Source: a bacterium SCSIO 12643 (GTDB taxonomy: Bacteria; Bacteroidota; Bacteroidia; Flavobacteriales_G; Salibacteraceae). Taken from it: a stretch of DNA of 64,000 nt. The DNA lies in contig CP073750.1 in NCBI GenBank assembly GCA_024398135.1, forward strand, positions 3,100,001-3,164,000, given 5' to 3'. Under the pieces are notes generated by a model, which ran no database searches, was not told the origin of the DNA, and saw only the letters and a list, made by a program, of their open reading frames with translations. Positions 33,814-63,779 of the stretch are shown one piece after another. A program made the translations under genes and the position numbers. Every line of letters begins with the position of its first letter. Positions within the stretch are counted from its first letter, which is position 1.

Positions 33814-33874
33814 GAATAAAAAAAGCTTAATATGTAATGAATTGTCATTTTAATCCATCACATATTAAGCTTTT
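33814..33874 (-). terminator. terminator after the TolB-like lipoprotein gene
   Basis: A 15-bp perfect inverted repeat (33821-33835 and 33860-33874, core AGCTTAATATGT) with a 24-base loop. On the minus strand it follows the stop at 33894 by 20 bases and is followed by seven T residues. Confidence 0.8.
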
Positions 33875-58989: not shown

Positions 58990-59253
58990 ATAAAAAACCG
59001 TTACTTATCATACCCTGTACTAAGAAATTCATTTACCACATTGAAGTATGAATTAAGTCAAACCGGAAACGTAATGATCCAACTTTATGATGTCTCAGGC
59101 AGATGGATTCATACGATAAAGGATCAAAAGCAAACACAGGGCAATCATCAAATTGAAATTCGTTTAGCAGATCTACCTGAAGGAGTGTATTTCATCCAAC
59201 TGCAAACTCCACAAGGCCAGCAAACCCTAAAACTTATTCGAACGAATCCATAA
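58990..59253 (+). pseudogene. orphan T9SS type A sorting domain (gene remnant)
   Basis: Open frame from just after a stop at 58987 to a TAA at 59253 with no proper start before TTG 59041. It encodes YPVLRNSFTTLKYELSQTG, then VMIQLYDVSGR and LADLPEGVYFIQLQTPQGQ, a clear type A sorting domain, but no signal peptide or passenger. It is most simply the 3' end of a cargo gene whose front part is lost, perhaps replaced by the dinD segment. Confidence 0.75.
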
Positions 59254-59316
59254 CAAAATTGTCTACCGGCATACTTTTTAGACGGCCAATCTGTCGTTTT
59301 AGAAATGCATGACCAA

Positions 59317-59442
59317 AATCACATAAATATACCTCGCTTTATTTAAGTGGTTTATGTGTTTTGTACACGTATAAACCACATCATTAAAATACGTATTTAC
59401 CACATTTTTTTTGTGAAGTGGAAGAGGTACATTTATGTGATT
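59317..59442. repeat. 126-bp structured inverted-repeat element (MITE-like or RNA)
   Basis: The outer arms AATCACATAAATATACCTC (59317-59335) and GAGGTACATTTATGTGATT (59424-59442) are inverted and agree at 18 of 19 positions. Inside lie a hairpin with arms GTGGTTTAT and ATAAACCAC (59347-59379), a 12-bp palindrome AAATACGTATTT (59387-59398) and a CCAC/GTGG stem (59400-59421). It ends 94 bases before the next gene. No ORF inside. Confidence 0.65.
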
Positions 59443-59536
59443 AAAGGTGGTGCTATTTGATTGGAAACGTTTGTAGTCGTTTGTAATTAATTATGATCGG
59501 ATAGCATATTCTGTATAGTTATTAAAATTACTGTGT

Positions 59537-62238: not shown

Positions 62239-62271
62239 TAACGCACCACAACAAGATGTATAGTGCATAGC
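62239..62271. repeat. cassette-boundary-like sequence, copy 1
   Basis: This 33-base sequence, with core CACAACAA and a following TATA, resembles the sequence at 63334-63365; the alignment has 8 identical core bases and further scattered matches (about 60%). It overlaps the 5' part of the UUCG hairpin at 62259-62299. Confidence 0.4.
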
Positions 62272-62299
62272 ATCCTTCGGGATGCTACAGCACCATATA
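62259..62299. other. long hairpin with UUCG tetraloop
   Basis: TAGCATCC-TTCG-GGATGCTA is a perfect 8-bp stem on a stable UUCG loop, extended by GTGC/GCAC and TATA/TATA after small bulges. It is 40 bases before the start of the next gene and has no T-run, so it is not an ordinary terminator. Confidence 0.6.
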
Positions 62300-62339
62300 T
62301 GGAACGTTGATTACCATATGACCAACTGACACTAATTGA

Positions 62340-63332
62340 ATGATAGAAACTCAAATCTCAATTCGGATAAACAGAAAATCAGACTTAGACGTGATTAAGA
62401 ATAGCATTATTAAAAATAGAATTCAGTTTCCGATTTATTTTTTCGAGTATGAAGAAAACTATAGCGTTAACCTTACCAGCGACTATGAAGAATGGGAATT
62501 GGATACAGAAATACTAAAGTGCTTTCCAGAATATGAGTTTACTGAAAATCCTGAGAAAGGTAGGAAGGAAATAAGATTACAAATATCTCGATATCAATCT
62601 GAATTATGTACTGACGGTTGGGGACGTCCAATAGAAAATCCATTAAACGAAACTAAATACTTAATAAGAAAATCAAAGAATAACATGCCAAAATTCAATC
62701 CAAGGATAACAGTACTGTTTGAGGACAAAGAACAAAGCTACTTTGTTAATATCGTTAATGGAATCAATAAAAGTACTAATGAAAAAGGCTACTTACTTCT
62801 TAATGAATTTAGGACCAAAAATGAAAATGATGAAACTAAAGTTTTAAAAGATAGACTTTATAAAACACCTTTAGAAGCTTTTCATTCTGCTTATTACAGA
62901 ATGGGAAATTTAGTGAATGATGATTTTAAGGAATACATAAGAAACAAGAAAAAGGAAATTAGGAAAGAGCAAAGGATTCCAAGAAAAAAAGTCCGAGACT
63001 TTATAAATTCCTGCAATAAAAATGACTTGGATGGTATTTTTAAAGATCTTGACGAAAACATTCTTTTTAAGAAGAATAATAAATGGAAAACCGAATTTGA
63101 ATTTAACGGCATCACGGAACTTAAAAAATACATAAAGTCTAAGAACCAAGACCTTTGTAATATGGAATTCAAGATAAGGTCTTCTTGGAATATAAATTTA
63201 CCTTTTAATATAACTATTGGCGTTAAATATTTTCTTGACCCAAATAAAAAAGACAATATGACCCTTAAATACAGACAGTATATGTTTGAATTTAAAAATG
63301 AAAAAATAATAAGAATAACAGAAGAAAAATAA
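62340..63332 (+). CDS. hypothetical protein with possible NTF2-like C-terminal domain
   Basis: 330 residues from ATG 62340, notably A+T-rich and Lys/Asn/Ile-rich compared with the core genes. No signal peptide. The C-terminal third (RKKVRDFINSCNKNDLDGIF, then GITELKKYIKS) looks like a SnoaL/NTF2-type fold that would bind a small ligand, but this is a guess from pattern. The N-terminal part is not recognised. Related short sequences lie before it and right after its stop, as in a gene cassette. Confidence 0.6.
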   Translation: MIETQISIRINRKSDLDVIKNSIIKNRIQFPIYFFEYEENYSVNLTSDYEEWELDTEILKCFPEYEFTENPEKGRKEIRLQISRYQSELCTDGWGRPIENPLNETKYLIRKSKNNMPKFNPRITVLFEDKEQSYFVNIVNGINKSTNEKGYLLLNEFRTKNENDETKVLKDRLYKTPLEAFHSAYYRMGNLVNDDFKEYIRNKKKEIRKEQRIPRKKVRDFINSCNKNDLDGIFKDLDENILFKKNNKWKTEFEFNGITELKKYIKSKNQDLCNMEFKIRSSWNINLPFNITIGVKYFLDPNKKDNMTLKYRQYMFEFKNEKIIRITEEK

Positions 63333-63333
63333 A

Positions 63334-63365
63334 TAAGGTACACAACAATGGCTATAAGTAATTGC
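63334..63365. repeat. cassette-boundary-like sequence, copy 2
   Basis: Starts two bases after the stop of the hypothetical gene. The core ACAACAATGGCTATAAG followed by TAATTGC resembles copy 1. I recall similar sequences after accessory genes in other Bacteroidota, but cannot check it here. Confidence 0.45.
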
Positions 63366-63448
63366 TTGTTCCCTTAGCAGATTGACATATCATAGCTTTC
63401 CAATCCATAAAACAATTAGGAAATCTCTCTAATAGTAACAAACAAGGT

Positions 63449-63491: not shown

Positions 63492-63779
63492 TTAAACTTT
63501 TCCCATCCGCTCAAAGCCTTCCCACAAAATTTTTAAATTAAAAAGGGCATTTTTCTCTTGAGTATCCAGAGATAAATCGGTGTGATACAAGGCAAAATCA
63601 TGAACCATTTTTAATGATTTGATGAGTTCATCAATTCCATGAAATTTGACAAAGTCAATAAATTCCGCTTCTGAAGCGTTTAAGGGAATTGGGGTTTTTG
63701 ATTCGATGAAGACTGAACCATTGAGTGTTTTCCAGTGATTACCATTCGGGTAACCGTTTTGACCATTCTGTGTTGTCAT
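63492..63779 (-). CDS. hypothetical 95-residue protein
   Basis: Frame from ATG 63779. Polar N-terminus with Asn/Gly (TTQNGQNGYPNGNHWKTLN), then a helical part (EAEFIDFVKFHGIDELIKSL, LDTQEKNALFNLKILWEGFERM). No family recognised and no signal peptide. It overlaps the 59-residue ORF upstream by 41 bases in another frame. Terminated by the hairpin at 63449-63489. Confidence 0.6.
   Translation of the reverse strand: MTTQNGQNGYPNGNHWKTLNGSVFIESKTPIPLNASEAEFIDFVKFHGIDELIKSLKMVHDFALYHTDLSLDTQEKNALFNLKILWEGFERMGKV

Follow-up and report, generated by a model that had tools for sequence, protein, structure and literature searches.

A nested palindrome in the putative leader of an integron-like gene-cassette array of bacterium SCSIO 12643

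Integrons are a major natural platform for the capture of genes. In the Bacteroidetes proper, one complete integron, that of Salinibacter ruber, was named by IntegronFinder 2.0 (PMC9024848). Clusters of attC sites without an integrase have been termed CALINs (PMC8618304), and in the chromosomal integrons of Treponema the integrase gene points towards attI (PMC3607928). The insertion that is specific to IntI has been described as essential to integron function (PMC8138268), and this I2 insertion has been described as the step enabling single-strand recombination by a Xer-like enzyme (PMC7790495). In the literature on Bacteroidota, flavobacterial or Tenacibaculum integrons we found, under the terms tried, no description of the system reported here.

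We analysed a window of 64 kb, namely positions 3100001-3164000 of the 4.12-Mb genome of bacterium SCSIO 12643, which is contained in a single contig. A preliminary description had reported a 126-bp element of nested inverted repeats in this window and had considered a miniature transposon, an RNA element or a recombination site, an interpretation that is partly supported and mostly fails. In the explanation that we favour, the element would be the middle of a leader (5′ control region) of ~250 bp, which would front an integron-like gene-cassette array far from the integrase (CALIN-type). We hold this leader and operator explanation, taken as a whole, with modest confidence. The features of the locus are, in window coordinates:

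59255-59505, plus strand: array leader (5′ control region) with an approximate left edge; aligns with two other leaders
59317-59442, plus strand: reported 126-bp palindrome, its outer arms private to the locus and unconserved elsewhere
59345-59355, minus strand: inverted partial half-site copy ATAAACCACTT, source of the inner palindrome
59360-59411, plus strand: operator-like tandem motif with half-sites at 59367-59381 and 59391-59405 (genome-wide model, E 1.6e-13)
59469-59489, plus strand: 10-bp phased repeat GTTTGTAGTCGTTTGTAATTA, seven copies in the genome
59537-62191, plus strand: first array gene, for an 884-aa GloVer-repeat protein that carries a T9SS type A sorting domain (the T9SS gene)
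62241-62319, plus strand: attC-like site (E 4.7e-14; E 4.3e-8 with a model excluding this site)
62340-63332, plus strand: second cassette gene, its 330-aa product without a family (cassette end rule 5/7)
63336-63426, plus strand: left half of an attC-like site plus a trailer common to other array ends
63492-63779, minus strand: ORF of 95 aa in the next leader unit, no family, four copies in the genome

The array in the window comprises one full attC-like site and one half site, and the usual CALIN definitions want at least two attC. The attC-like site ends on its right side in GTTGATTACC and the next cassette ends in GGTACACAAC; these two ends match at five of their seven free bases. The cassette-start rule is absent from the start of the T9SS gene, and its own capture as a cassette is therefore not supported. 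The two other leaders, at 3647.9 and 3761.5 kb of the genome, align along the whole region and past both arms of the palindrome. The genes that follow them are unrelated to the T9SS gene, and we thus rejected paralogous T9SS genes behind common leaders as an explanation; by eye, the T9SS homologue of G002 also has neither the leader nor an attC-like site. An island targeted to tRNA genes was rejected as well, since only the 2105-kb array directly adjoins one. Immediately upstream, at 59041-59253, an orphan T9SS sorting-domain fragment abuts the leader, which gives the impression of a gene interrupted by rearrangement. At the other end of the array, the 95-aa ORF belongs to a family without known domains (window 63492-63779; genome 3647269, 3716817 and 3760922) whose members are divergent from array leaders; for an ORF that overlaps upstream of them the frame is not kept. 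The phased-repeat site of this next leader unit lies just past the window, at 3164022-3164042 of the genome.

The nested inverted repeats are real. The outer arms (59317-59335 and 59424-59442) are complementary at 18 of 19 positions with 88 nt between them, and inside the arms we found an 18-nt inverted repeat (59338-59355/59371-59388, 83%) together with further partial palindromes. The preliminary description had judged that chance would not easily produce such a density, and we agree: 19-nt inverted repeats of 18/19 with arms no more than 100 nt apart occur at two places in the window, and comparable 19-nt, 18/19 repeats were found in none of 40 simulated first-order Markov windows. The other short-gap repeat of this kind in the window is at 33821-33874. 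It speaks against the leader and operator explanation that the palindrome stands far above chance and that the outer arms receive no function in it; the missing cassette-start rule at the T9SS gene weighs in the same direction. The element also contains a direct repeat not mentioned in the preliminary description, 59367-59381 (ACGTATAAACCACAT) and 59391-59405 (ACGTATTTACCACAT), with copies of 15 nt that are 87% identical and 24 bp apart.

When the 126 bp were compared with the genome, the only full-length similarity was to the element itself, and the good partial matches centred on bases 28-97, which is the direct repeat and not the arms. The outer arms match only themselves genome-wide and are not kept in the aligned leaders at 3647.9 and 3761.5 kb. 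These genome matches and the leader comparison indicate that the palindrome is private to the locus and that the direct repeat is the common part. A miniature transposon (MITE) mobilized in trans would explain why a unit of 126 bp has almost perfect terminal arms and why its core recurs in the genome. However, several copies would be expected and no second one with the arms was found, the similarity of the leaders continues past both arms, and the places at which the core recurs are on the promoter side of genes, so that we regard a MITE as highly improbable. An RNA element, i.e. a leader RNA or attenuator with a long hairpin in the transcript controlling the T9SS gene, seems distinctly unlikely to us. 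As RNA, the strand at 59317-59442 does fold well (-40.1 kcal/mol, z = -5.7), and the hairpin lies 95 nt upstream of the T9SS gene, but in the leaders at 3647.9 and 3761.5 kb the homologous segments are no more stably folded than shuffled sequences (z -0.4 and 0.0). Neither a conserved structure nor a known family, as would identify a cis-regulatory RNA, was detected: the comparison of just three homologous sequences yielded 0 compensatory changes in pairs, and there was no Rfam match at gathering score. Neither a MITE nor a conserved RNA is supported, since the arms are unique, the homologues fold like shuffles and compensatory changes are absent among the three.

The recurring core consists of two half-sites, GTATAAACCACA and ACGTATTTACC, usually 24 bp apart. 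With a motif model made from sequence only, out of nine copies, we identified 17 places in the genome at E < 1e-3, eight of them outside the building set. All 17 are intergenic and 16 have a same-strand gene downstream, in most cases with a start 77-300 bp away, while the remaining one is located 70 bp from the start of a divergent gene. Genes downstream of the motif include those for a NACHT protein, an N6/N4 methyltransferase, Vsr and an AAA_21 ATPase as well as the T9SS gene, and a weaker match (E 0.04) was found near a C5 methyltransferase gene. Five exact copies of the 19-mer ACGTATTTACCCTGATACC (86498, 3195182, 3476865, 3477631 and 4012563) precede different genes of the genome; in 40 relatives no copy was found within two mismatches, and near the integrons of relatives the motif model gave nothing strong. 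Both results weigh against the leader and operator explanation. According to the preliminary description, a single unconserved copy would count against the element, which is true of the 126-bp palindrome and untrue of its core.

An operator is expected to form a motif that recurs at the promoter side of genes, and placement and recurrence point to such a role here. The pattern suggests a lineage-specific control site that would be recognized by a regulator. Specifically, the working part of the leader would be the tandem half-sites of 12-15 bp, 24 bp apart and ending 126 bp before the first start codon, where a DNA-binding regulator may act on transcription from the leader and set the expression of the array, likewise at the ~16 other motif places. 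The palindromic look would stem from an inverted partial third half-site and from outer arms unique to the locus. Taken on its own the 126-bp element is fairly ordinary, a probable control region whose palindromic form is incidental; its genomic context, unlike the element itself, is out of the ordinary. Promoter hexamers were rejected as a reading of the leader site, since in a by-eye comparison the Bacteroidota -33/-7 boxes misfit some copies.

The phased repeat GTTTGTAGTCGTTTGTAATTA lies downstream of the hairpin and ahead of the T9SS gene, and its copies precede the first genes of arrays and the integrase gene. That other arrays begin with the same phased-repeat site supports the reading as a leader. 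In relatives (L103, L105, L111 and L115), GTTTGTAGTCGTTTGTAATTA is also found ahead of short ssb genes. Its position before ssb and integrase genes might reflect a common control of the DNA-stress or competence type, which is a guess on our part. The strongest rival to our explanation is that the end of the leader also takes in cassettes. The leader itself would then be an attI-like attachment region with GTTTGTAGTCGTTTGTAATTA serving as the repeats bound by the recombinase and a G↓TT ~36-38 bp downstream as the point of cassette entry. This is suggested by the units at 2105 and 2107 kb, where cassettes start at that spacing and complement the cassette ends at 7/7 and 6/7, and in all arrays examined GTTTGTAGTCGTTTGTAATTA stands before the first gene. 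However, the T9SS gene does not follow the rule, the attI-like end of the integron-like platform described below follows the integrase gene instead of lying in the integrase leader, and the copies upstream of ssb genes suggest regulation; we consider an attI-like leader unlikely. The leader site was rejected as the main attI, since the attI-like sequence is found after the integrase gene. The recombination site that the preliminary description had envisaged comes close: the hairpin belongs to the leader of an integron-like array, and an attC-like site follows 2.8 kb downstream. That site and the hairpin are, however, different objects.

Under the leader and operator explanation, the cassettes would be taken up by a XerA/IntI-like recombinase acting on the attC-like hairpins further downstream. 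At 1431000-1441000 the genome carries an integron-like platform, with a XerA-like integrase that lacks I2 and is encoded on the same strand as its cassettes. The integrase gene (1439702-1440850, minus strand, 382 aa) adjoins the array, as is typical of integrons, and the tyrosine recombinases of the genome comprise this enzyme, XerC, XerD and one fragment. An attI-like sequence ending in ACGTACG↓TT directly follows the integrase stop codon and is in turn followed by a same-strand attC array. An identical integrase is encoded on the MAG contig L130 of a close relative, labelled Flavobacteriaceae, in which the first cassette (702 bp) is missing exactly at G↓TT with flanks of 99.4 and 92.7% identity, that is, the site for cassette entry is present there in an empty state. 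In structure the attC-like sites are conserved, with 17 double-change cells and a covariation of 0.398 vs 0.148 in shuffled alignments. Starts and ends of cassettes are complementary at 63 of 77 positions over 11 cassettes, two of which (2107 c2 and 3761 c1) fit poorly and some of whose starts were picked by eye; the permuted mean was 33, and none of 20000 permutations was as high. The attC model, although built from the SCSIO 12643 genome alone, independently picked up sites at 658 kb and in relatives. In Maribacter, Zobellia and a Cytophagales MAG, these sites follow orthologous integrases on the same strand; further sites lie near a short Tenacibaculum match. One empty site and the sequence rules thus suggest that the platform is active in recombination. 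A second integron remnant at 656397-658834 contains a truncated integrase (C-terminal 107 aa, 90% identical), the same attI-like end as the platform and two attC-like sites. A divergent CxxC gene upstream of the integrase, zinc-finger-like by eye, is seemingly conserved beside it in relatives (L131-L137) and not here.

The integrase scored 238 bits against NF040815 (cut-off 220) and 206.5 bits against TIGR02249, which is under the cut-off of 265. With the integron-integrase model it reached 206 bits, and XerC and XerD 152 and 109 bits, respectively. Its best family and structure-sequence matches are XerA-like (NF040815; PDB 4a8e and 5hxy). The IntI-specific insertion (I2 helix or patch) was not detected in the integrase: residues 193-246 of VchIntIA (~50 residues) have no counterpart, and the predicted structure, whose mean pLDDT of 63 is too low for a fold search, shows no extra helix in its secondary structure between residues 286 and 302. 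Five orthologues of 62-67% identity likewise have no insertion at the I2 position and share with the integrase an N-terminal extension of ~110 aa; orthologues without I2 occur in Maribacter, Zobellia and Aquimarina. Such an enzyme either solves the problem in another way or works by a different mechanism. Possibly, the recombinase captures folded attC-type cassettes without I2 and uses its extra N-terminal domain instead.

We see about an even chance that Flavobacteria and their relatives carry true integrons with an I2-less recombinase, with scattered arrays, such as that in the window, whose leaders place captured genes under a genome-wide motif shared with defence genes. If a working integron without I2 exists, the origin of single-strand activity becomes directly testable, and searches that are tied to the insertion or to proteobacterial attC models could miss such systems. 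Furthermore, if cassette-array leaders and defence genes have a control motif in common, this would hint at how these bacteria express the genes that they capture.

Compared with known systems, the array in the window resembles CALINs in that its genes are split by attC-like sites and lie far from the integrase gene, and differs in that arrays here begin with a common leader and that the window array has one full attC-like site. The platform shares with the integrons of Treponema an integrase on the same strand as the cassettes and an attI-like site after the integrase; however, Treponema belongs to another phylum and the recombinase here is without the IntI insertion. With class 1 and Vibrio integrons (IntI1, VchIntIA) it has in common an attI-like site, orientation-specific cassettes and folded attC-like sites with opposed unpaired bases. 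It differs from these in a recombinase without the I2 helix and with a conserved N-terminal extension of ~110 aa, and the core GTTRRRY is matched in part (GTTGGGC, but also GTTGTGT). In contrast to XerA-like recombinases, finally, the platform enzyme sits at a cassette array, and XerC and XerD are encoded by separate genes.
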